A program made the translations under genes and the position numbers. The notes beneath the pieces were generated by a model. That model was not told the DNA's origin, did no database searches, and saw only the letters and a list, made by a program, of their open reading frames with translations. This document shows, piece by piece, positions 1-35,701 of a stretch of DNA of 35,701 bases; position 1 is the stretch's first letter; every line of letters begins with the position of its first letter. The stretch comes from a virus, in IMG/VR virus record IMGVR_UViG_3300046411_000129, positions 1 through 35,701 of that record; one strand, written 5' to 3'.

Positions 1-187
1 ATCAGTTCCTTCGGGGCATTCAATTTGGACTATAGTATTGCTACATTCGCTTATGTCATTAACCATTTGCCCTGCTTTATCAGTTCCTTCGGGGCATTCA
101 ATTTGGACTATAGTATTGCTACATTCGCTTATGTCATTAACCATTTGCCCTGCTTTATCAGTTCCTTCGGGGCATTCAATTTGAGTT
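1..187 (-). repeat. Left end of 78-bp coding tandem repeat (two identical copies plus partial)
   Basis: Bases 1-78 and 79-156 are identical 78-bp units and 157-187 begins a third that diverges at CAATTTGAGTT. Each unit encodes 26 residues of the Cys-rich protein (ECPEGTDKAGQ...NDISEC...). Bases 79-187 are repeated exactly at 35593-35701. Confidence 0.95.
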
Positions 188-2139
188 ACGCCGGGACCGC
201 ATTTTCCGTCTTCGTCTTCTAAATCGCCGTCTTCACAAACACAGTTGCCATTTTCGTCTTCAGTGCCTTCTGTGCATTTAGTTGTGTCACCGTTGGGGTC
301 TTCAATTTCAGGATCTACACATTTCCCCTGTGACGCATCATAAATTTTGTTAGAATCTATACACTCGCCGCAGTTACCTTCTGCGTCTGCTGTACGTCTT
401 CCGGAATCTTGACATTCCTGAGACGACGTAAACGGTATAACGGGGACGCCTATGGTATTGTTTATTGGGTCTTTGAAGTACTCGTCGTACAGACCTTGGG
501 TAAGTATATACCCACCACCGACTAAAATACTACCGATAGTTCCTAAAACATCATCAATACTGACTTCGCCAGCGTCTTTAAAAATACCCCCGACTTTTTC
601 AGCAACCCAATCTCCCAAGTCTCCCATGACTTCTTCAATAGAAGTCTCGCCGCTTAAGATTTTTTCAATGTCGTGCCCTGCAGCTTGAACAGTGTCTAAT
701 ATGTCACCTACAGTAGCCCCTTTAAATATAGTCCCTATGGGTCCGGGTAAAGGGAAAGGCAAACCAATGCCTACACCAACAGTTACACACTCTCGTACCC
801 ACCCGGCTCCAGTAGCGGATCGACAAAGTGAACTGCTAGAAGCCGACGCCGTTTTTTTAATAATTTCTTCTAACGTACCAAAAGGGTCGTCTAAAACTTT
901 ACCAAAGACAGTCTCAAGCTCTTTTAACTTTCCTTGGGCGTTTGTTACAGCTTTCCTTCCGTACTTTTCAATTAGCTCCGCTAAGCTAGGATCTATTTCA
1001 GGACACTCTCCTGTTAATGCAAAGATTCCATTACCACAATCTTCATACTCAGGGTAACTGTCTGGGTCTTTGCCTAAATCTATTGGTACAAGCTGACCGT
1101 CACTGGTTATTTCGTATCCGCACTCACCGGCATTTCCTTGGGTAATAACTGTACAGTCGGCATCACTACTAGAGTCGTCGTCATCGCCGCCAGAACTAAG
1201 AGGAATACACTCTCCGTTTGGTCCTCTTTTTCCTTCTACTCGACCGTCTTTAGTTTCGGTGTAACACGTAGTTCCTTCTGAGGTATCAGTGACACACTCA
1301 CCGTTTTTATAAGTGCCTTTACCGTCGTCATTTTGACACGGAGTGCCATTAGGAGTTACTTCAGAAACGCTCCAATCACTACAGTTGCTGTACCCAATGT
1401 CACAAAGGGCATTAGACAGTACATTGTTACCTTTAAATTTGTCGTTGTTTACTTCACCCTGAAAAATTTCGTCTATAGCTTCTTCAGAGTACCCGTTGTC
1501 ACGTAGTATTTGTCTTATGTCTGCGTTTGATATATTTTTATCTAAATCACCTAGTTCTGTGTCTTCTGTTGTACCAACAACACTAGAGTAGTACTCTGAC
1601 CACCCCGGTATATCTTCAAGGTCAGAAACGTCAACAGCTTTTATTACATCAAGGTCGCCAGTCTCTAGAGCATCTTTCCACTCATTAGCGGCATCCATCC
1701 TGTCAACACGATCCATGTCATCAGAGTCTAGGCCTTCAATGTACTTAGACAGGATTATGTTAAACTGTTCTAGCAAACCTATATTAGCAGGTGTTTGCCC
1801 TCCAAGCTCAGTATCATCGGAACCGCCAGTAAACATTCCCCGCCTTATCTGAGCCTCTTGAGACGTAGCAATATTAGTTACGGCTCGCTGAACAGACCCT
1901 GTAGTGTTGATTTCCTCTACCCACGCTTGGCGTTCTTCCATTTCTGGTTCACGCCCAAGGGTTTGTTGATAAGCTCTGTAAACAGCAGCTTCTGGAGACT
2001 GAGATATGCCAGTAGCTATTTGCACTAAGGACTGCCCACTAGCCGCTGCAGCAAGCCAACCGTCTATACCAGACTGCAGAGGCTCTCGACCTAAGTACGC
2101 CCGGTAAAACTGTTTTATGTCATCGGCAGTAACAGCCAT
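1..2139 (-). CDS. Giant Cys-rich repeat virion protein, N-terminal 713 codons (split by the contig ends)
   Basis: I read an open frame from the ATG at 2139 to base 1 with no stop; it is in phase with the frame entering from 35701, so this and 34678-35701 are one gene of about 991 residues (992 codons with a 187-base overlap, more if extra repeats exist). Residues 1-100 contain two FYRAYLGREP / YRAYQQTLGREP motifs typical of DUF4214-like domains of surface and tail proteins. Next come a Cys-rich region (CxxxxG and GECV patterns), a Gly/hydrophobic stretch near residues 470-490 that could be membrane-seeking, more Cys-rich EGF-like spacing, and then the 26-residue repeats. It lies between the holin genes and the tail-tube gene, so I infer a virion or adsorption protein. 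Exact role unknown. Confidence 0.85.
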   Translation of the reverse strand, partial: MAVTADDIKQFYRAYLGREPLQSGIDGWLAAAASGQSLVQIATGISQSPEAAVYRAYQQTLGREPEMEERQAWVEEINTTGSVQRAVTNIATSQEAQIRRGMFTGGSDDTELGGQTPANIGLLEQFNIILSKYIEGLDSDDMDRVDRMDAANEWKDALETGDLDVIKAVDVSDLEDIPGWSEYYSSVVGTTEDTELGDLDKNISNADIRQILRDNGYSEEAIDEIFQGEVNNDKFKGNNVLSNALCDIGYSNCSDWSVSEVTPNGTPCQNDDGKGTYKNGECVTDTSEGTTCYTETKDGRVEGKRGPNGECIPLSSGGDDDDSSSDADCTVITQGNAGECGYEITSDGQLVPIDLGKDPDSYPEYEDCGNGIFALTGECPEIDPSLAELIEKYGRKAVTNAQGKLKELETVFGKVLDDPFGTLEEIIKKTASASSSSLCRSATGAGWVRECVTVGVGIGLPFPLPGPIGTIFKGATVGDILDTVQAAGHDIEKILSGETSIEEVMGDLGDWVAEKVGGIFKDAGEVSIDDVLGTIGSILVGGGYILTQGLYDEYFKDPINNTIGVPVIPFTSSQECQDSGRRTADAEGNCGECIDSNKIYDASQGKCVDPEIEDPNGDTTKCTEGTEDENGNCVCEDGDLEDEDGKCGPGVTQIECPEGTDKAGQMVNDISECSNTIVQIECPEGTDKAGQMVNDISECSNTIVQIECPEGTD

Positions 2140-2140
2140 A

Positions 2141-2515
2141 TTACTTGCCCTTCATTTTCATTAGCTTGTCAGCGCCACGTATGCCAAAGCTGGCTGTAAC
2201 GGCAACAAACAGCAAGTACTGATAGTACTCAGGTAGCTTATCTAGCTCAGTAAACGCAATGCCTACCCGCTGCATGATACTCAGGTCATCCATAGCTACT
2301 CCGTAGCAAACCGCCAGTAAGGGCAGGGAAAGAACAACGGTGAACCATTCGTCTTTCCATGACCTTCCACTAGCTTCAGCCATGTGCTGTTCCCACGTAG
2401 CCGTATTTTCAATGACTTTCATTTGAGCTACGTGCTTGGCTTGTGACTTTTCGTGTCTGTTAGAAAGCCAGTTCTGAGCCAAGTTTGCAACGGGTCCAAC
2501 AAGGGCTGTCCACAT
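2141..2515 (-). CDS. Holin, 3-TM (GTA-holin-like) family
   Basis: The 124-residue protein has a polar N-terminus (residues 1-50, with NRHEKSQAKHVAQMKV), then WKDEWFTVVLSLPLLAVCYG (TM), a second hydrophobic stretch around MQRVGIAF, and YYQYLLFVAVTASFG (TM) before a basic tail GADKLMKMKGK. The WKDEW..LP...Y and final FG.RGADK pattern is what I recall of the holin-3TM family (PF11351 type). It would permeabilise the inner membrane for the M15 endolysin encoded at 14906. It starts immediately before the repeat-protein gene (1 bp gap), and small membrane genes sit upstream, giving a lysis-like cluster. Confidence 0.75.
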   Translation of the reverse strand: MWTALVGPVANLAQNWLSNRHEKSQAKHVAQMKVIENTATWEQHMAEASGRSWKDEWFTVVLSLPLLAVCYGVAMDDLSIMQRVGIAFTELDKLPEYYQYLLFVAVTASFGIRGADKLMKMKGK

Positions 2516-14104: not shown

Positions 14105-14186
14105 ACAACTTCCAACTTAAGTAAAACGTGATCGCTCCAGTTACAATCGGCAAAGACATAATACACACTAGCAAAAATACTTCCAT
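14097..14186 (-). CDS. 29-residue membrane peptide upstream of TerL
   Basis: ATG 14186 overlaps the stop of the glutaredoxin-like gene (TAATG); stop TGA at 14097-14099. Nearly the whole peptide is hydrophobic: EVFLLVCIMSLPIVTGAITF then YLSWKLCD. One TM segment. The second such tiny membrane gene in the terminase-portal region; it could be a by-product of tight coupling or a real membrane peptide. Confidence 0.55.
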   Translation of the reverse strand: MEVFLLVCIMSLPIVTGAITFYLSWKLCD

Positions 14187-14449
14187 TACTCTAGTTCGTC
14201 TAATTCGTCTTCTGTCAATTCTCTGGTGGGTAGGTCGGCTTCTTCTAACAAGTCAGACACCGCTTGTAGTGTTTCAAACTTATGTAACACTGCAGGCACT
14301 GCTCTACGTCCAGTAAAGGCTTCTACCATGTCCCAACCTGCGGGACCGGGAGGCATCTTTACGTACCGATGGTCGACGTTCATTTCCATCAGTTTTCGCC
14401 TTAGTCCCCGACAACCGTGACACCAGTCGGCTCCGATTACAACAAACAT
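14186..14449 (-). CDS. Glutaredoxin/thioredoxin-fold protein
   Basis: I choose ATG 14449 (MFVVIGADWCHGC) because it lies one base after the IscU stop and gives an 87-residue, glutaredoxin-sized protein; an upstream in-frame ATG at 14500 would add 17 residues overlapping IscU. The first beta strand and redox motif are VVIGADWCHGC (Cys 10 and Cys 13 of the chosen start), and cis-Pro occurs in RRAVPAVLH. The tail is acidic (TEDELDELE). It probably reduces disulfides or relays to an Fe-S or reductase partner; it is translationally coupled to IscU. Confidence 0.8.
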   Translation of the reverse strand: MFVVIGADWCHGCRGLRRKLMEMNVDHRYVKMPPGPAGWDMVEAFTGRRAVPAVLHKFETLQAVSDLLEEADLPTRELTEDELDELE

Positions 14450-14450
14450 A

Positions 14451-14834
14451 TTATACTTCCCGCTTATCCCAGTAGTTTTGAACAGCAGCTTTGATAGCAT
14501 CCTCTGCTAAAACAGAACAATGTATTTTTACTGGAGGTAGTGAAAGCTCGTTTGCAATCTCCGTGTTTTTGATTGCCGCAGCCTCGTCAAGTTTTTTTCC
14601 TTTTACCCACTCAGTTAGCAATGAACTAGAGGCAATCGCAGATCCACATCCGTAAGTTTTGAACTTGGCGTCCTCAATGACACCGTTGTCGTTTACTTGA
14701 ATCTGCAGACGCATCACATCGCCACAGGCCGGTGCTCCCACCATGCCAGTGCCTACAGAATCGTCAGAATCGTCCAACTTCCCCACGTTGCGGGGGTTTT
14801 CGTAGTGGTCGATTACTTTGTTGCTGTAAGACAC
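14451..14834 (-). CDS. iscU: IscU-like Fe-S cluster assembly scaffold
   Basis: 127 residues, same length class as cellular IscU, from a GTG start. All critical residues are at E. coli numbering: C37 and D39 (GAPACGD), C63 (TYGCGSAIASSS), H105 and C106 (VKIHCS), plus LPPVK at 99-103, the HscA chaperone recognition motif. The N-terminus (YSNKVIDHYENPRNVGKLD) is canonical. IscU receives sulfur from IscS and builds 2Fe-2S/4Fe-4S clusters. There is no IscS, HscA or ferredoxin gene, so it must plug into host machinery. It lies in the late operon with a glutaredoxin-like gene downstream. Full conservation argues for function; acquisition from a host is inferred. Confidence 0.93.
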   Translation of the reverse strand: MSYSNKVIDHYENPRNVGKLDDSDDSVGTGMVGAPACGDVMRLQIQVNDNGVIEDAKFKTYGCGSAIASSSLLTEWVKGKKLDEAAAIKNTEIANELSLPPVKIHCSVLAEDAIKAAVQNYWDKREV

Positions 14835-15779: not shown

Positions 15780-16020
15780 TTACTTTAGAAAAATCAAGTA
15801 GTTACATGTGTTTATTTTTTACATAATTTTTCTAATTTTTACCTATTTTGTGCTTGAGTGGCTGCTACAGTTACAGCGGCAACAAAAGTCCCTCCCCCGG
15901 CCAAGTTATCCACAGGTTATTCACAAGTTATCCACAGCTGTTGGCATCCTGTGGATATCCTGTGGATAATTTTCAGAGCTGACAAAAGTTATCCACAGGT
16001 TTTCCACAGGTTTATCCACA
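15780..16020. other. Putative DnaA-dependent replication origin
   Basis: An AT-rich tract (about 15780-15850, e.g. TTTATTTTTTACATAATTTT) adjoins a DnaA-box cluster. Perfect TTATCCACA occurs at 15906, 15928, 15989 and 16012 (plus) and 15961-15969 (minus); TTATTCACA at 15917; one-mismatch forms at 15950-15958 (minus) and 16000-16008. That is eight boxes in 115 bp next to a likely unwinding element, the architecture of bacterial oriC. It lies between the divergent late and early units. Direct seen evidence is the motifs; origin function is inferred. Confidence 0.85.
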
Positions 16021-25768: not shown

Positions 25769-26015
25769 AGGCAAGTTTGGAGGTAAGATTAAAAACAAAG
25801 ACGACAACATCAAGACGTCGGAGTTTTTAGCATCATTCACAGCAAAAGCAATGGACTATGAAGCAGAAGGGAAGCAGGTAAAGGTTGCCGTTATCATGTA
25901 CGAAGATGGAGAAGTGTTTGAAGTTGCGTCCAACGAGCAATACCCTGACGGAGTATACATGCTACTGCAGTTAGCAGGACAAGCAATCATCAACGAAACT
26001 CTGGGTATATCCTGA
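25755..26015 (+). CDS. 86-residue hypothetical protein
   Basis: Alternating beta/helix pattern: KQVKVAVIMYEDGEVFEVAS, PDGVYMLLQLAGQAIINETL. Basic N-terminus. Overlaps the DUF3310 gene by 14 bp; its stop overlaps the following lipoprotein ATG (TGATG). No family recognised. Confidence 0.68.
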   Translation: MKVIEGKFGGKIKNKDDNIKTSEFLASFTAKAMDYEAEGKQVKVAVIMYEDGEVFEVASNEQYPDGVYMLLQLAGQAIINETLGIS

Positions 26016-26200
26016 TGTACAGGACGATACCTCTAGTCTTGCTTCTGTCAAGCTGTGCCGTTTCAGAATTGGGGGAGTGTCTGAAGTGGTCAACACGAGA
26101 ATACAAAGTCACAGAGTGCGCCGGTCATGGAACTGCCCGCATTTGTGTCGACACAACGTACTACCAACCGTTTTGTTTAGACAGAGAAAAGGAGAACTAA
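26015..26200 (+). CDS. Small Cys-rich lipoprotein
   Basis: 61 residues beginning MYRTIPLVLLLSSCAVSELG: a short signal peptide with lipobox LSSC, lipidation at Cys 14. The mature part has four further cysteines (GEC, TEC, ARIC, PFC), consistent with two disulfides in the periplasm. An early-expressed phage lipoprotein may block superinfection by masking a receptor, as T5 Llp does; the o-spanin alternative is weaker because it lies in the early operon. The stop overlaps the reductase ATG (TAATG). Confidence 0.75.
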   Translation: MYRTIPLVLLLSSCAVSELGECLKWSTREYKVTECAGHGTARICVDTTYYQPFCLDREKEN

Positions 26201-28252: not shown

Positions 28253-30259
28253 CTATTGTCCCTGTGTCTGGTCTGAAGTAAGCATTCTTGCCAGCTGCTT
28301 CTCAACATACTGCACAGCAACTTCTCTCTCGCCTTCAGACATTTCGTCGATGATTTCACTTACCATAATGTTTAAGGCTAACTCAGCGTTGGCACTTGCT
28401 TTTCCTCCAGCAGACAACAAAGTAATAAGCTTGTTGACGTACTGTGGGTTGGTCACGACTTTGGCAAAAACATTAGGAACATAAAGTGCCGCTGCTCCAA
28501 TACCAATCCCGATTCCTGCAGAACCGGCGGCAGTGCCACCAACAACCGCAGCCCCCGGAGCTATTCCTCCCCTCAAAAGCGTACCGGCTCCTTTAAGTCC
28601 TTTAGTTTCCAGCCCTCTCAAAAACAGAGCACCTGTATCTCCTGAGGCAGATTCAGCAGTTTCTCTAATTGCATTCATCAGCTGATTAAATCTAGGGAAA
28701 GCAGGCCCAAGAACTTCTTGGAATATTTTCCGCTGAGTAGGGTTATCCAACTGAATAGCTAAGGTCCTTAGCTGTTGAACATTTGCTACGTCGCCTGACA
28801 AAACCTTGGTAAGTTTTTCTGAAAGAAAACCTTCCCTGAAAAGCCTGTCGACTTCTTCAAACGACTGTACAGACAAGGTTTCTCCAGCCTTCTTAGCAAC
28901 AGAGTACGCTTCTGCCAAGCTTTTCTTCAGTGCTTGAACCTGTTCCAGCCTACTGCCCTTGGCGGCAATATTACCAAGTGACGTGTAGGCCCCTTTAGCT
29001 GCTTGAGTTACAAACCCCGCATTAACTTTAGGCATCATGGCGTTAATAGAGTTCCCGTACGCTTCTTTTAGTGCCTTGTATTCTGCCGCAGCTTTAGGGT
29101 CTATCCTTTCCAAAGTATTTAGTATTGTTTGTCTAATGACTTCGGAGGCTTCCTGAAGCTCTGCGTGAATAACGTCGTTTCTACCGGCTCCTGCTTTAGG
29201 TCCAAACGCAGCGTTAGCTCTGTTGGTAAACGACTTGTCGATCATAAGCAGTTCTGAAACTCTTACCTGACCCGACTGCAAATCCTTAATTCTTTGCATT
29301 GAGTCACGAATAAACTTCAGTGTTTCAGGCTGTACTTTGTCAGCTGCTTGTCCAGTTAAAGTCCTTATGTAAGAATCTATAGGATTAGTCAGAAAACGAC
29401 CATCAATAGTTTTAAAAGTTACCGTAGACAAGGACCTGTTTATTTTGTCTAAGCCCATGCCGTACTGCTTTCTTAAAACTTCTACGCCTTCATCAATTAG
29501 CGTACTAAACGTACTGCCCATGTTGTAGGCATCGTTTGCCATTCCGCTGGCGTTCCTGTTTATCAAATCATTTAAAGAGTCAACGATGGCGTTATTAACG
29601 GCTTCGATGTTAGCAGCCATCTTTTCTCTTGAGATCAAACCTACAGACGCAATCCTCTCTCTGAAGCTATCAAGACCTGACTTCAATACTTGAGAAGGAA
29701 GAAGTGTCGCTCCTTTAGCCTGCAACAGTTTCTGAGTAGCAGCCAAAGACTCTGGAGAACCGGCAGGTAAAACAAGGTCAAGTGCTTCTTGAGCAGTTTC
29801 TTCGACGGATTTTCCATTACGCATACGCAAGGCGTACCATGCAGGCTTGAGTTTAGTCAGGATGCCCATAGTAGCTACGTCTATACCAACAGACCACAAG
29901 GCTGCTTCTATGCCTTCTTTGTAGGCTTCTACAGTAGTTGACCCTTTAAGCTGCTCAGACTGTGCAGTACCGTATCCAGTACCTAATGCACCCATTGTGA
30001 TGCCGCCAACAACGGCCCCCGGAGGGCCTGCTACCGCAAAACCTCCTACAGTTCCTGCCATTGCCGCTCCAAGACCATAAGGCAGGTCCAAGTTCTCTTC
30101 TAAGAAGCTAAGCTCTGGTGCAGGAGGTGGAACAGTGTCGTCGTCAGTTTCTTCTTCTTCAGGAACAGCAGACTTCCCTGTGTACAGTTCCATCTGAGCT
30201 TGGAAACCACTTTGGCTTGGCTCTGAAAGCTTCTGCATTGTCTCTTCAAAAGTGCTCAT
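28253..30259 (-). CDS. Internal virion protein, 668 residues
   Basis: Acidic N-terminus (EEEETDDDTVPPPAP), Gly-rich hydrophobic hairpins at about residues 60-100 (GLGAAMAGTVGGFAVAGPPG) and again at about 580-625 (GGTAAGSAGIGIGIGAAALY), separated by a long helical middle. Position after tail tube, nozzle and two other internal proteins fits the ejection-core proteins that form a DNA channel across the envelope, like T7 gp15/gp16. No lytic transglycosylase motif seen. The start overlaps the preceding stop (TAATG). Confidence 0.7.
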   Translation of the reverse strand: MSTFEETMQKLSEPSQSGFQAQMELYTGKSAVPEEEETDDDTVPPPAPELSFLEENLDLPYGLGAAMAGTVGGFAVAGPPGAVVGGITMGALGTGYGTAQSEQLKGSTTVEAYKEGIEAALWSVGIDVATMGILTKLKPAWYALRMRNGKSVEETAQEALDLVLPAGSPESLAATQKLLQAKGATLLPSQVLKSGLDSFRERIASVGLISREKMAANIEAVNNAIVDSLNDLINRNASGMANDAYNMGSTFSTLIDEGVEVLRKQYGMGLDKINRSLSTVTFKTIDGRFLTNPIDSYIRTLTGQAADKVQPETLKFIRDSMQRIKDLQSGQVRVSELLMIDKSFTNRANAAFGPKAGAGRNDVIHAELQEASEVIRQTILNTLERIDPKAAAEYKALKEAYGNSINAMMPKVNAGFVTQAAKGAYTSLGNIAAKGSRLEQVQALKKSLAEAYSVAKKAGETLSVQSFEEVDRLFREGFLSEKLTKVLSGDVANVQQLRTLAIQLDNPTQRKIFQEVLGPAFPRFNQLMNAIRETAESASGDTGALFLRGLETKGLKGAGTLLRGGIAPGAAVVGGTAAGSAGIGIGIGAAALYVPNVFAKVVTNPQYVNKLITLLSAGGKASANAELALNIMVSEIIDEMSEGEREVAVQYVEKQLARMLTSDQTQGQ

Positions 30260-31620
30260 TATTGATACGCCTTCATAATTTGATCGTAAGTGTACGTTCC
30301 GTTTTTAACAGCTTCCATTGCGTCTGGCCTGTCTTCTGCAGGCAAACCAAAGAAGTCAGACTCTATCACAAGACCCTTAGCACGTCTGTAGTCATCATAA
30401 GTAGGGGACTTAGCCATTGTAATTGAGTTCTGCAGTTCGTTCTCTGCGTTCTGCAATAGCACACTGAGACGACCAATGTTTACTTCTTCATTGTCCACAT
30501 AGTCTATAATGCTTTGGATAGCGTAGTTTCTCTCACCGTCCGAAATAGCACCAGCAAAGCCCTGAAGACGTCGCATAACGGCTTCGGAAAGTATACCGGC
30601 TAAACGACCTTGGGACTGAGGTATTTTTTCTGAGCCTATAAAACGAAGAAGTCCTTTAGACATTTGCCGTGGAACGCCACCGGTTCTAACTTCGTTAGTA
30701 GCCAAAAGATTAATGGCTTCCTGAAGAAGACCTGAGGTTTGCTGAAGCTGGTCCACTCTAAGAGACGCCTCTACTCTGTGACCAGCGTAGTCTGTCTCTA
30801 GCTTTTCTCGCCTAGCCATTTCAGGTTTGTCGGTCTGTACCCTTAAGTCTTTTTGGTCAGTACGCACTAAATTCTGTCCAGTATAAGGTTTACTTCCGGG
30901 GTCGGGTGTAATTGGCCCTCTTTGTGTTGATCCGTCCTTCATTACCATTTCTACTTGAGTATAAGTATCTCCGGTAACTGGGTCCCTAAAGTACAATACA
31001 ATACTTCTCTGAACATTTGGGTCCTTACCGCCAGTCTTAAACTCATCAAAGATTTCTCTGGCTCGTGTCGGAGTAACACCTTCCATTTGAGAAGCGCCCT
31101 TGAAGTAATCGTTTACGTCCTTAGGGCTTTCAAAATCAAAGTTAGGGCTAGACAGCACTTGCTGCAAAAGACCTTCTTGAGTTTGTGTATCCTGTTCACG
31201 CATAAGCTGACGTACGTTTCTAACCTCTTCAGTTCCACCAAGGCCCTGAATGTCCTGCAAGAGGTAGTCAGGAACTGCTTCTCCTCCTCTAGCCATTTGT
31301 GACGCTACGTCCACAGCACTAGCAAGCTCACCTTTTCTCTTGGTGTCCTTCATTTTAGTAGCAGTAGCCGACACTGCTGAAGCAGCCTGATTTCGGCCCA
31401 TAGCCCTAAGCTGCTGAGCAATGTTAAACAAAGCTACGTCGTTGTTGTTTTTCTGAGCTTCGGAAGCTTTCGCCATAAGAGCGTTAAACTCGTCGTCGGT
31501 TTTCTTAGCTCTGTACTGAGCACCTATGCCTCCAAGAGCTTGCCCCGTTTGGAACATGCTTCGACCAAAGTCGGGTCTTGCCAACCCACTCAGTACTTCA
31601 TTTGAAATGTTAATAGCCAT
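30259..31620 (-). CDS. Internal virion protein, 453 residues
   Basis: Almost entirely helical with Gln/Ala-rich segments (EAQKNNNDVALFNIAQQLRA, LRVDQLQQTSGLLQEAINLL). A beta-like insertion (RSIVLYFRDPVTGDTYTQVE) sits mid-protein. Similar helical proteins sit between nozzle and terminal ejection protein in marine podoviruses. Assigned by position and composition, likely part of the internal core. Confidence 0.65.
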   Translation of the reverse strand: MAINISNEVLSGLARPDFGRSMFQTGQALGGIGAQYRAKKTDDEFNALMAKASEAQKNNNDVALFNIAQQLRAMGRNQAASAVSATATKMKDTKRKGELASAVDVASQMARGGEAVPDYLLQDIQGLGGTEEVRNVRQLMREQDTQTQEGLLQQVLSSPNFDFESPKDVNDYFKGASQMEGVTPTRAREIFDEFKTGGKDPNVQRSIVLYFRDPVTGDTYTQVEMVMKDGSTQRGPITPDPGSKPYTGQNLVRTDQKDLRVQTDKPEMARREKLETDYAGHRVEASLRVDQLQQTSGLLQEAINLLATNEVRTGGVPRQMSKGLLRFIGSEKIPQSQGRLAGILSEAVMRRLQGFAGAISDGERNYAIQSIIDYVDNEEVNIGRLSVLLQNAENELQNSITMAKSPTYDDYRRAKGLVIESDFFGLPAEDRPDAMEAVKNGTYTYDQIMKAYQ

Positions 31621-31631
31621 TTTAAAACCCC

Positions 31632-32468
31632 TTAAAGACTAAATAGACTCTTTGAGCCACCACTGACAAGACCACCACCTAAATCTCCTAGCAAGCTTGC
31701 TTGTCCTATAGAAGAAGACAACAAAGCATTAATAGCAGCTGCGTAACTTTCTCCGTAAGTTTGTGCCTGCTCAGACATTGCTTCACGCCTACGTTCAGAA
31801 GCAGCCATACCGGGCTCCAGTGCTGCCAGTGTCTGTCCCTGAGGCAAGTAGGAAGCCTCAAGAAGACTTGCACCTGCCTGACGATCTCTGTCTTGGTCAG
31901 CCCGTGCGAACTCCATAGCCGTTAGCACGTCTCTAGCTTGTTGCTCTTCTTGTGCTTGCGCTAGGGCCAGCTGCTCTGAAGTGCCTCCAAACATCGCTGT
32001 ACGGGTCCCTAAGCGTCCTTGAGCAGCTAAACGCTCTTCTAAGGCTAAACGCTCTCTTTCTCTCTCAGGAGCCCTGAGTGCGGCTAAACGCTCTAAGACA
32101 GCCGTCTCACGGTCTGCAATAGGGTCCTGAGCAGACGTAAACATCGTCGTAGCACCCGACAGAAGATTTTTACGTAAAGTTTCTTCATCAGGAGACAGCG
32201 AAACGTCATAGGTAAACTGACCTGTTTCGGGGTCTTCGACCATACCAAACTGACTGCCAGTAGCTGTCGTTACTGTATAAGGCTGGAACTCCAGCATTCC
32301 GCTAAGCTCAGGGCCTAAGCCTTGGACAAACTCGCCTGTGGTTTCGTCAACGAATCCGGGGCCAAAGCGATTAAAAGCTTCTTGACCAGTAGCGCCTAGC
32401 TTATCATAAGCCTCTTTTATCAGTCCAGCCCCGGCTCCTATCCCTAAAATTTCTGCAAGATAACTCAT
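31632..32468 (-). CDS. Internal virion protein, 278 residues (T7 gp14-like position)
   Basis: Hydrophobic Gly-rich N-terminus (EILGIGAGAGLIKEAYDKLG), long charged helices (APERERERLALEERLAAQGR), then TMFGGTSEQLALAQAQEEQQ and a Ser/Gly-rich C-terminus. Marine podoviruses have such a protein directly after the nozzle; it would be ejected into the outer membrane as T7 gp14 is. Motif evidence is weak, position evidence good. Confidence 0.68.
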   Translation of the reverse strand: MSYLAEILGIGAGAGLIKEAYDKLGATGQEAFNRFGPGFVDETTGEFVQGLGPELSGMLEFQPYTVTTATGSQFGMVEDPETGQFTYDVSLSPDEETLRKNLLSGATTMFTSAQDPIADRETAVLERLAALRAPERERERLALEERLAAQGRLGTRTAMFGGTSEQLALAQAQEEQQARDVLTAMEFARADQDRDRQAGASLLEASYLPQGQTLAALEPGMAASERRREAMSEQAQTYGESYAAAINALLSSSIGQASLLGDLGGGLVSGGSKSLFSL

Positions 32469-32477
32469 TCTTAACTC

Positions 32478-34010
32478 CTAAAGAAGCTTTCCTAATAAAG
32501 CCATTACGTTAATCTCCTGTAGTGACAAAGCAAAACCGTTGATGTCTGCCTCCATACCTACCGTAACACTTGTGCCATAACCAGTGGCGTTTACGTTTCT
32601 TCTACTGGTTACGTTGTCACCTGTTGTGTACTCAGACGTGGTATTAAACTCACTGACGTTAAATTCTCCGCTGATGCCCCCACCTGTAAGTGGTAGTCTT
32701 TCCGTACTAAACACTGTACTAAAATCATAAGCCCACTTAAGAAATGCATCAGAAACATTTGAGCTAACAATAGTTGGTCTAATTTTCTTTAGTAGTTTTA
32801 TTCTAGCGGCGTCACCAAAAGTAAGTCCGGGGCTATAATATTTAAATCGGTACTTAGCGTTGTTGTCTGTGTAGCCTGTATATTCGCTTATTCCGTTGCT
32901 AGTACCTATGTACAAAGTGCCGTTGTTTAAGCGACTAAAAGAACTAAAGCCTGTACCAATCCAACGAGTAACACGGTAAGCGCCGTTATCTAATTCACCC
33001 CTGACGTCAAAACAATAGATTACGTCCTGACCGACAAACGACAACAAATAAAAGTTTTCTTCTGGACTATAGACAGACCTAAAAGATTCTGTTTCACTTT
33101 GTAACGAAATAATAATGTCTTTTGTAATATTAGAAGACAGAGAAGATATAGGCGCTGATTTTTCTTGTATTGTTCTACCAATACTCATAAGTCCTGCTTG
33201 GGACAAAAATATTACGTCAGTTCCTGTGTTTTGTACGGTGTCTCTGTCTACACAACCAACATTAGACATTGTGTCTAAAAGAGTCATTGAGGCGGGTGCA
33301 GTTGCCCCTTGATATATAACAATACTACGTTTTCCAAAAATAACTAAAAACCCGTTATGGGCCTCTAATGCAACTATTTCGTCGTGTCCGTCAGGCCAGA
33401 CTGTAGAAATATCAAGAGAGCCTGAGCTTCCTCCTGACCATACATGCCCTAATAAAAGATCAGACCAGTAAATAGTGGATTTGTCAGCACTAAAGTCGGC
33501 AGTCCACAAACGACCATAACCAGCGATTACTTCGTTGCCAAACATTGTACTTGAAACTCCCGCAGCCCCAGCAACCGTGCTGAGTTTTGCCACAGAACCT
33601 CCGTTGGCGTACACTAACGGTTCATGCCCTCTTTGAAAAAAGTATATCTTGTCGTTGAAGTTCACCATCTTCCAGTTGTCGGCATTGATAGTGTAACTTC
33701 CGGGAGTTTCGTCTACAAGCGTAGTCGTCCCGCTCATTATTTTGTTGTTTCCTACAGAAAAAACTTTAGTGTTTCCTGCGTCATCTTTAAACTGCTTTAT
33801 AGCACGTATAGTTTTGTTTGTGCCTAAAACTGTTTTGTTAGTGGTCAGTAAGTTGTGACCCTTACGAGCAGCCACACGTCCCCGCTTGTCAATAACAGCG
33901 TTGTCTGCTATCTCAGCAAACGTAGGGTCTTGAGCAATCGGAGAGTCTTCGGTGTTTATGCCTTTGAAACCCGGAGCTACAAGATTAATGCTTTTAAGTT
34001 GACTCGCCAT
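32478..34010 (-). CDS. Tail nozzle (tail tubular protein B-like)
   Basis: 510 residues. The N-terminus (VAPGFKGINTEDSPIAQDPT, FAEIADNAVIDKRGRVAARK) is the conserved start of marine-podovirus nozzle proteins, followed by beta-propeller-like repeats (DNWKMVNFNDKIYFFQRGHE, GHDEIVALEAHNGFLVIFGK). It sits directly after the adaptor gene (2-bp gap). It closes the tail and binds the fibres. Confidence 0.83.
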   Translation of the reverse strand: MASQLKSINLVAPGFKGINTEDSPIAQDPTFAEIADNAVIDKRGRVAARKGHNLLTTNKTVLGTNKTIRAIKQFKDDAGNTKVFSVGNNKIMSGTTTLVDETPGSYTINADNWKMVNFNDKIYFFQRGHEPLVYANGGSVAKLSTVAGAAGVSSTMFGNEVIAGYGRLWTADFSADKSTIYWSDLLLGHVWSGGSSGSLDISTVWPDGHDEIVALEAHNGFLVIFGKRSIVIYQGATAPASMTLLDTMSNVGCVDRDTVQNTGTDVIFLSQAGLMSIGRTIQEKSAPISSLSSNITKDIIISLQSETESFRSVYSPEENFYLLSFVGQDVIYCFDVRGELDNGAYRVTRWIGTGFSSFSRLNNGTLYIGTSNGISEYTGYTDNNAKYRFKYYSPGLTFGDAARIKLLKKIRPTIVSSNVSDAFLKWAYDFSTVFSTERLPLTGGGISGEFNVSEFNTTSEYTTGDNVTSRRNVNATGYGTSVTVGMEADINGFALSLQEINVMALLGKLL

Positions 34011-34012
34011 AT

Positions 34013-34660
34013 TTATACCGTATGGAATATCATTTCTTCAGGATGTTTAGCAGCGTCTAAAGCTACGGCATCTGCTAGTGTTTTGTTAGCAATCTCAAAA
34101 TACTCCGACACCGACGTGCCTCCGGTTTCTCCACGCTCACGAACGAGCAAAGCCAAAGCCATGTTAATGACAGGCTTAGAAGGTACTAATAACACGTCAG
34201 CGTTGTTACTCAGGTCTGCTTGTCTTTTTATAACGTCAAAACGTAAATTGTACACGCCGTCTGGTGTAGGCCCCACAAGAACCTGAGTATCGCCGCTGGC
34301 GTCTAAACCGTTAAATGTGTAGTATTTTGGTGCACCTTGCACAGCTTCTGCAATGTACAAAGCGTTGTTAAACCAGTCCTTAGTTTGATAGCCCATAAAA
34401 CAATTTTGTGTGTCGTTAAGTACGGACATAACTTTAACACTATCGCCACTACCAGTCAAAGAATAAGTGTTGTCTGAAGCTGTAGTGGAAATAGAAATAG
34501 TTGCACGTAAGGCAGACCAGTCTGTAGTCTCTTCTACAATTTGTTTTGCGTCGTTGATGTAGTCACTAACCATAGTTGAGTAAGTTGTTTCTGAAACAGC
34601 ACCTACCGTCTCTTCTCGCAGCCTACGCAATATGTTGTTCATTAAGTTCAAGTAAGTCAT
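34013..34660 (-). CDS. Head-tail adaptor (tail tubular protein A-like)
   Basis: 215 residues. The pattern LNLMNNILRRLREETVGAVS, DYINDAKQIVEETTDWSALR, and the C-terminal helix NMALALLVRERGETGGTSVS fits the gp11/gp4-type adaptor of T7-like phages, which joins the portal to the nozzle. Located between the big repeat protein and the nozzle gene. Confidence 0.82.
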   Translation of the reverse strand: MTYLNLMNNILRRLREETVGAVSETTYSTMVSDYINDAKQIVEETTDWSALRATISISTTASDNTYSLTGSGDSVKVMSVLNDTQNCFMGYQTKDWFNNALYIAEAVQGAPKYYTFNGLDASGDTQVLVGPTPDGVYNLRFDVIKRQADLSNNADVLLVPSKPVINMALALLVRERGETGGTSVSEYFEIANKTLADAVALDAAKHPEEMIFHTV

Positions 34661-34677: not shown

Positions 34678-35701
34678 TCAGGAGAAAAGACTGTTTTTCA
34701 GTTCTTTTTTAACAAAGCCGTCCAAAACATTAATTGCTCTTACGGGCGCTCTGTACTGTACAGCCACAAATGGCTGACGTTGGTAGTCAGGCAAAGGTGC
34801 AAAAAGCCCCCTGCCGCCACCGCCGCCACCTCCGCCACCACCGGAGCTTTCTTCTTCTTCTTCCTCTTCTGGCTCTTCTGGAGGAGGGGTAGTTGTAGGC
34901 GTAACACAATTACCGTTTGCGTCTTCAACAGTTCCTTCAGGACACACACACATGTCCGTGCCATCCGAACTCATAACTTTACCGCTACCTTGTCCTGCAC
35001 AAGGGTCAGGAGGCGGAGGAGTGCCAGTACTGACACAAACACCCTGTGCATTTTCAACAGTACCCTCAGGACACTCGCACGGGCCGTCGCTGGTTGTTCT
35101 TACTTTACCACCTGTGCACTCACCATTAGGAGGAGGAGGAGGAGGCTCAACTACTACAACGTTGTTACAGTCATTTAAGTTATTAACCGTTTGTCCTGCT
35201 TTATCAGTTCCTTCAGGACATTCTATGGTTGTGACAGTAGTACCACAGTCGTTCAAATTACTAACCGTTTGTCCTGCTTTATCAGTTCCTTCAGGACATT
35301 CTATGGTTGTGACAGTAGTACCACAGTCGTTCAAATTACTAACCGTTTGTCCAGCCTTAGGAGTTCCTTCAGGACATTCTATGGTTGTGACAGTAGTACC
35401 ACAGTCGTTCAAATTACTAACCGTTTGTCCAGCCTTAGGAGTTCCTTCAGGACATTCTATGGTTGTGACAGTAGTACCACAGTCGTTCAAATTACTAACC
35501 GTTTGTCCAGCCTTAGGAGTTCCTTCAGGACATTCTATGGTTGTGACAGTAGTATTACACTGGTCTAAGTTATCAACCATTTGCCCTGCTTTATCAGTTC
35601 CTTCGGGGCATTCAATTTGGACTATAGTATTGCTACATTCGCTTATGTCATTAACCATTTGCCCTGCTTTATCAGTTCCTTCGGGGCATTCAATTTGAGT
35701 T
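34678..35701 (-). CDS. Giant Cys-rich repeat protein, C-terminal 341 codons (continues from 1-2139)
   Basis: The frame enters at codon position 35700 without a start (an internal ATG at 35658 is only a repeat Met). It contains seven 26-residue repeats, then a Pro-rich linker, two Cys modules (CECPEGTVENAQG, CVCPEGTVEDANGNCV), an acidic run, a 10-residue Gly run and a final GLFAPLPDYQRQPFVAVQYR segment ending KKELKNSLFS. Repeat consensus: ECPEGT-D/PKAGQ-V-NL-D-C---V--I with two Cys per repeat. The short hydrophobic C-terminal motif after poly-Gly recurs in marine phage virion proteins. Function unknown, likely external to the virion. Confidence 0.85.
   Translation of the reverse strand, partial: TQIECPEGTDKAGQMVNDISECSNTIVQIECPEGTDKAGQMVDNLDQCNTTVTTIECPEGTPKAGQTVSNLNDCGTTVTTIECPEGTPKAGQTVSNLNDCGTTVTTIECPEGTPKAGQTVSNLNDCGTTVTTIECPEGTDKAGQTVSNLNDCGTTVTTIECPEGTDKAGQTVNNLNDCNNVVVVEPPPPPPNGECTGGKVRTTSDGPCECPEGTVENAQGVCVSTGTPPPPDPCAGQGSGKVMSSDGTDMCVCPEGTVEDANGNCVTPTTTPPPEEPEEEEEEESSGGGGGGGGGGRGLFAPLPDYQRQPFVAVQYRAPVRAINVLDGFVKKELKNSLFS
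35179..35701 (-). repeat. 78-bp coding tandem repeats, right end (about seven units)
   Basis: The CAGTTCCTTC...GG-CATTC landmark recurs at about 35205, 35283, 35361, 35439, 35517, 35595 and 35673, exactly 78 bp apart. Units 1-2 and 3-5 form near-identical subgroups (TATCAG versus TTAGGAG variants), the sixth (B, 35515-35592) differs and the last copies match the left contig end. Confidence 0.95.
35593..35701. other. Terminal overlap with 79-187 (circular or permuted genome)
   Basis: All 109 bases match 79-187. With the shared reading frame this shows the window ends are adjacent in the real molecule. It is an assembly cut inside the repeats rather than a demonstrated physical phage end. Confidence 0.92.

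Follow-up and report, generated by a model that had tools for sequence, protein, structure and literature searches.

What kind of phage gene encodes dozens of cysteines, and why do they come only in even numbers? The question is raised by a gene on the minus strand of a 35,701-bp virus of podovirus type (the whole stretch analysed, here called the window), which is cut by both contig ends. Cysteines in such numbers, and invariably paired, are unexpected in a phage protein, because phage virion proteins fold in the reducing cytoplasm. The window also encodes an SU10-like portal, TerL, a major head protein, an SU10-type adaptor, PolA, a primase-helicase and ribonucleotide reductase. Portal relatives lie on MAG contigs labelled Bacteroidota (four of five loci) or Planctomycetes (one of five), labels that denote bins and are not proof of host.

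It is clear that the two terminal pieces form a single gene. The N-terminal 713 residues are encoded at 1-2139 (minus strand) by a stop-free frame that begins with the ATG at 2139 and exits the left end. The frame continues at 34678-35700 (minus strand) with the C-terminal 340 residues and the stop codon. A 127-bp end overlap, with identical copies at 61-187 and 35575-35701 (both minus strand), joins the pieces in frame into a protein of 991 aa with 42 Cys. An earlier sequence-only reading had proposed a gene split by the contig ends that would reach about 991 residues once joined. Both points hold, the length as an estimate: comparison of the translations finds at least two ISECSNTIV-type units at the left contig end and one at the right, which indicates a collapsed or variable copy number. 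The same reading had located the gene at 34678-35701, which is its C-terminal third only. What if the joined frame were an assembly artefact that fuses two different repeat genes? The contig ends do fall within a repeat, and the unit number is unequal between them. However, the whole gene, including the intact N-terminal part, stands on a separate IMG/VR contig of 4105 bp (L006) as a 955-aa frame that is 78% identical to the joined window protein over aligned residues and is flanked by the same two neighbours, the 124-aa membrane-type protein and the adaptor. The gene is likewise uninterrupted in L009 and L010. Therefore, a chimeric join, one of the two outcomes that the sequence-only reading had named as fatal to its proposal, is rejected as extremely improbable.

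The protein begins with a DUF4214 region of two stretches (1837-2127, minus strand), directly followed by a GMFTG motif (1825-1839, minus strand) of the same class as the motifs found at the C-termini of the family. A helical, Cys-bearing middle part leads into an array of 26-residue units, which starts at 1-183 (minus strand; Tandem Repeats Finder period 78 bp, 2.3 copies, 100% matches, score 366) and has its main part at 35167-35700 (minus strand; period 78 bp, 6.7 copies, score 694 at 35167-35691). The units follow the pattern IECPEGT[DP]KAGQ..V..L..C and hold about two Cys each, with 16 residues between the two Cys of one unit and 8 between successive units. Next come Pro-rich linkers with two more Cys-pair modules (CECPEGTVENAQGVC, CVCPEGTVEDANGNC; 34894-35151, minus strand) and a hinge, acidic in its first part and Gly-rich in the next. 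Behind the hinge lies a conserved C-terminal segment (RGLFAPLPDYQRQPF...KNSLFS; 34681-34812, minus strand), the putative virion anchor, its conservation seen in an alignment of 60 C-termini. The corresponding array of L006 has a 21-residue unit. The five-residue difference falls within the loop between the two cysteines, and the between-unit stretch has the same length in both arrays.

Two features read from the letters alone, the 26-residue tandem repeats with two Cys and the DUF4214-like N-terminus, were thus borne out, the latter with 39.3 bits against a Pfam (PF13946) gathering cut-off of 23.2 and a best stretch at residues 8-52. EGF-like Cys spacing, which had also been suggested, is unsupported for the window protein: Pfam gave no EGF or cEGF match, and the nearest family, TIL, stayed below its cut-off (E 0.044, 14.4 bits against 24.5). 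EGF-type chains (LRP2) appeared as a fold match of the L006 model, but an unusable one (E 0.035, probability 0.14). No match of any weight placed the repeats in a known family of Pfam, PHROGs or PDB sequences, and a DUF4214 profile found none among PDB sequences.

Structure prediction was informative only in parts. The AlphaFold2 model of L006, built with 24 further rows, has a mean pLDDT of 68 and a pTM of 0.26. Its DUF4214 region is helical, with pLDDT about 90 in most blocks, its Cys modules are hairpins, and its hinge and tail are of low confidence. A repeat rod, as the sequence-only reading had it, is unconfirmed: a four-repeat model (pLDDT 52, pTM 0.25) was of too low quality to be used, and showed no rod. 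The fold matches listed for the L006 model were mostly to the N-terminal helices. With Foldseek, these weakly resembled phycobilisome linker domains (pfam00427; best E 0.033), and the best viral matches were DUF4214 proteins of uncultured phages (E 4e-5). VIA scored phycobilisome linkers at Z 4.3 (53 residues) and, for the S-layer protein RsaA, the N-terminal domain in its LPS-bound form at Z 4.1 (101 residues), both below the tool's own trust level.

What do related phages carry at this position? The gene lies directly upstream of the SU10-type tail adaptor (34013-34660, minus strand; Pfam SU10_adaptor 50.1 bits against a cut-off of 27), and the adaptor was used to find this slot in relatives. 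A first set, the best-matching part of the relatives, comprised 138 loci with an adaptor among the matches listed. Leaving out 37 that were cut by a contig end or encoded fewer than 200 aa (L198, with 34 aa, included therein) gave 101 full-length proteins of more than 200 aa, 102 with the window, and k-mer clustering reduced these to 60 representatives. A second set came from two scans with adaptors of distant relatives. Among the matches listed it held 148 adaptor loci, one without an ORF and 56 cut or short, and so yielded 91 full-length proteins. Together the sets contain 136 distinct full-length proteins in 102 clusters among the matches listed. Because start codons were assigned by rule, the N-terminal lengths may be inaccurate.

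The gene in the slot is hypervariable and modular. Comparing each of the 60 representatives with itself revealed Cys-rich proteins built from units of 18, 20, 21, 26 or 32-33 residues with about two Cys, units of 35-36 residues with about four, and 22-residue units with a mean of 3.1-3.6 Cys rather than two or four. Cys-free versions consist of collagen-like 9-15-mers, 15-mers of the FATPEDV type, or PEP or Ala/Asp/Lys-rich repeats. In the same comparison, several Cys-rich and several Cys-free proteins had no tandem array. Pfam assigned DUF4214 to 16 of 46 slot members, cEGF to three, collagen to three and RTX to one, and many further matches resemble low-complexity noise. For some relatives there were matches to tail-fibre PHROGs, perhaps likewise a product of low complexity. 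A partial slot gene (L095) has tandem CEDPAATNFGQDGPCIYGPP units, a further two-Cys repeat type. On a Planctomycetes-binned contig (L417), a 416-aa Cys-free frame with collagen-like repeats (20324 onward, plus strand) lies directly upstream of the adaptor.

The cysteine counts of these proteins are never odd. Among the matches listed, the 136 distinct full-length proteins have 0-4 or 24-64 Cys. In the first set, 57 of 102 have none, 12 have 2-4 and 33 have 26-64, and all 45 that contain Cys have an even number. The second set served as an out-of-sample test of parity: 36 of 91 proteins are Cys-free and the other 55 are all even. It contributes 42 clusters that are new relative to the first, 23 of them with Cys. 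Combined, 63 of 63 Cys-containing distinct proteins are even (0 odd of 136), as are 52 of 52 Cys-containing clusters out of 102, again among the matches listed. The coin-toss probability of 52 even clusters is 2e-16, a nominal value that overstates independence because clusters share modules and ancestry. Other proteins of the same loci serve as controls. Odd and even counts above zero among their distinct proteins are 94 and 66 for the nozzle, 26 and 18 for the MCP, 90 and 2 for the adaptor, 40 and 6 for TerL and 20 and 53 for the portal. Odd counts are also frequent among the other window genes listed that contain Cys. The portal is mostly even too (53 of 73), which is a reminder of lineage effects.

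An excess of even counts is an established sign of disulfide use (PMC3177088; PMC7678975). Cys is also the most conserved residue in the slot proteins (71%, against 60% for Gly). To judge from these patterns, the cysteines very probably pair as disulfides, and we infer that the disulfides cause the parity. Could the pairs bind metal instead? Paired ligands would likewise give even numbers, and CxxC occurs 56 times where 41 are expected. However, over 896 Cys this is barely an enrichment, which speaks against zinc sites. Moreover, the Cys of the window array are separated by 16 residues within a unit and 8 between units, and parity is kept even in slot proteins with exactly two Cys. Metal binding is accordingly very unlikely. 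The sequence-only reading had raised the idea that disulfides form after lysis. Its first half, pairing, is strongly though indirectly supported by parity. As for timing, a simple hydropathy scan of 102 clusters detected no hydrophobic N-terminus of the kind that export signals have, so oxidation, if any, should come after lysis or ejection, and the proposal fits on this count as well.

The other constant of the slot is the C-terminus. The 60 representatives contain 96 copies of GM[LF], where shuffled sequences give 9.2. Of 151 occurrences across the 102 clusters, 106 are within 70 residues of the C-terminus and 26 within 110 of the N-terminus. A C-terminal motif lies within the last 14 residues in 94 of 102 clusters, compared with 2.8% of random 14-mers from the same proteins. 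The contig L183 is instructive. Its flanking genes are 95-97% identical to those of the window, whereas its slot protein is 85% identical over the C-terminal segment and 17% over the first 190 residues. By its sequence this is the pattern of a virion-anchored recognition gene. One conserved end, the putative anchor, and one variable end, as in a tail fibre, are both present. Since the motif is near-universal at the C-terminal end, and L183 retains its C-terminus while swapping the N-terminus, the anchor would lie at the C-terminus. Several slot relatives end in ..GGLFS or ..LF. A 278-aa Cys-free protein of the window (31632-32468, minus strand) ends in KSLFSL, like the KNSLFS of the window slot protein. 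A link between the two proteins through LF endings was considered. It is present in some relatives, with no clean co-variation.

Taken with the gene order, the conserved C-terminus makes it probable that the slot protein is attached to the virion. Beyond this, we would give an even chance to the reading that the gene is one version of a hypervariable, C-terminally anchored virion stalk, an adhesin, of uncultured and probably marine podoviruses. Virion location, orientation, adhesion and the shape of a rod are the conjectural parts of this reading. The short C-terminal segment behind the Gly-rich hinge would dock on the virion, probably near the downstream-encoded adaptor or nozzle. The N-terminal part, here DUF4214, would form the exposed, distal head, and the repeats between head and anchor an extended spacer, each repeat of the window version being closed by a disulfide. 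The protein would stay reduced while it is synthesised and assembled in the cytoplasm, and its cysteines would pair after virion release or protein ejection. Other phages of the group fill this slot with Cys-free repeats, collagen-like or of other kinds. If confirmed, the reading would mean that the change in redox conditions at lysis (or entry) can serve phages as a maturation step, and that interchangeable stalks, whether disulfide-stapled, collagen-like or other, can be mounted on a single anchor. Cys parity would also offer a sequence-only test for extracellularly exposed proteins in uncultured viruses.

The slot gene resembles several known systems in part. T7 gp17-type receptor-binding fibres and the hypervariable host-recognition genes that marine phages carry in metaviromic islands (PMC3909814) also have one conserved end, a repetitive middle and a fast-changing other end beside tail genes. 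Unlike them, the window protein has its conserved end at the C-terminus, Cys-paired repeats and no tail-fibre family match. Collagen-like phage tail proteins (PHROG 1806, PF01391) are similar to those relatives that fill the slot with collagen-like repeats, whereas the window protein is built from Cys-pair repeats and matches no collagen family. Disulfide-rich repeat proteins of the EGF type (cEGF, LTBP1) share the short Cys-closed units, LTBP1 is a weak match (E 0.006), and cEGF is found in three of 46 slot relatives. However, the window array has two Cys per unit, where EGF repeats have six, and the window protein reaches no EGF family. T4 Hoc, a head decoration protein, has a C-terminal capsid anchor and exposed N-terminal Ig domains. 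The proposed slot protein is likewise C-terminally anchored with an exposed N-terminus, and differs from Hoc by the latter's Ig domains. Surface proteins with DUF4214 are a further parallel, in that the window N-terminal domain is a member by the Pfam cut-off, although only 16 of 46 slot proteins have the domain. A study of segmented filamentous bacteria describes DUF4214 there as a probable domain for surface anchoring (PMC12780176).

Several observations weaken the stalk reading. C-terminal anchoring counts against it, being the reverse of that in most phage tail fibres. Neither half of the window protein matched a PHROGs tail-fibre family, neither half (nor one Cys-free relative) had an isolate homologue in the phage collection, and the repeat array was modelled with low confidence and without a rod. 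The probable tail nozzle (32478-34010, minus strand; weak connector and virion matches) found only three Pelagibacter phages, at 25-33% identity. In the annotation of two of these three, and of two further phages to which the 124-aa neighbour led, no counterpart of the slot gene was matched. No earlier description of such a gene was recognised in the PMC literature, as judged from search listings.

Perhaps, then, the protein is carried inside the virion. A flexible internal protein like those of the T7 core, packaged by its C-terminal motif, could be threaded into the host envelope on ejection and oxidised in the periplasm. The gene does sit in a block with the adaptor, the nozzle and three Cys-free proteins (31632-32468, 30259-31620 and 28253-30259), the 278-aa member of which shares the ending noted above with the slot protein and several of its relatives, and 26 of 102 clusters contain a strongly hydrophobic 19-residue stretch. 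The window protein has no such stretch (1.37), however, and extreme module swapping and collagen-like versions, as seen in the slot, are more usual in exposed fibres. We consider internal ejection unlikely. Further down the scale, and distinctly unlikely, is a protein outside the virion, late and associated with lysis or the cell surface. It would be grouped with the upstream gene for a small membrane-type protein of 124 aa (2141-2515, minus strand; phrog_2524, function unknown, relatives annotated DUF3154 or TMhelix), which adjoins it in the window and in many relatives. An export signal in none of the 102 clusters by hydropathy scan, a conserved C-terminal motif and an adjoining adaptor gene all speak against this.

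If the stalk reading is right, how might the cysteines be kept apart until release? A candidate, with a possible link to the Cys-rich version, is a thioredoxin/glutaredoxin-like protein with a WCHGC site (14186-14500, minus strand; Thioredoxin_7 E 0.005, below cut-off). Its gene adjoins TerL, and relatives carry WCPAC. In 20 records with a complete TerL (19 of 42 searched, and the window), the redoxin gene is present in five of five Cys-rich and one of 15 Cys-poor records (Fisher p 4e-4, uncorrected for kinship). The association is confounded by kinship, the Cys-rich gene of L306 is partial, and the L171 record extends only about 0.5 kb upstream of TerL. The Cys-poor exception (L221) begins at its N-terminus in much the same way as L382, a Cys-rich relative. 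A role merely as partner of the phage ribonucleotide reductase was also considered. There is no simple link, as seven of 11 RNR-positive records (of 19) are without redoxin. Glutaredoxin is normally a reductant, so the redoxin might, speculatively, keep the slot protein reduced inside the cell. This would make the gene a plug-in stalk of a widespread uncultured phage group, with an absolute bar on unpaired Cys, held floppy and reduced in the cell by the redoxin and stapled rigid by oxidation after release, a tentative and on balance doubtful extension. If true, stalk maturation would be timed by exit from the cytoplasm.

The redoxin-like gene overlaps one for a NifU_N/IscU-type Fe-S scaffold protein (14451-14834, minus strand; E 3e-54). 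Elsewhere in the window, a 61-aa ORF (26015-26200, plus strand) has a lipoprotein-like start, five Cys and no Pfam match. Finally, five perfect TTATCCACA sites, which we take to be DnaA-box-like, occur within 115 bp at 15906-16020, where 0.22 are expected in the whole window. The cluster sits where the leftward structural genes and the rightward replication genes diverge, and is possibly a phage origin that uses host DnaA.
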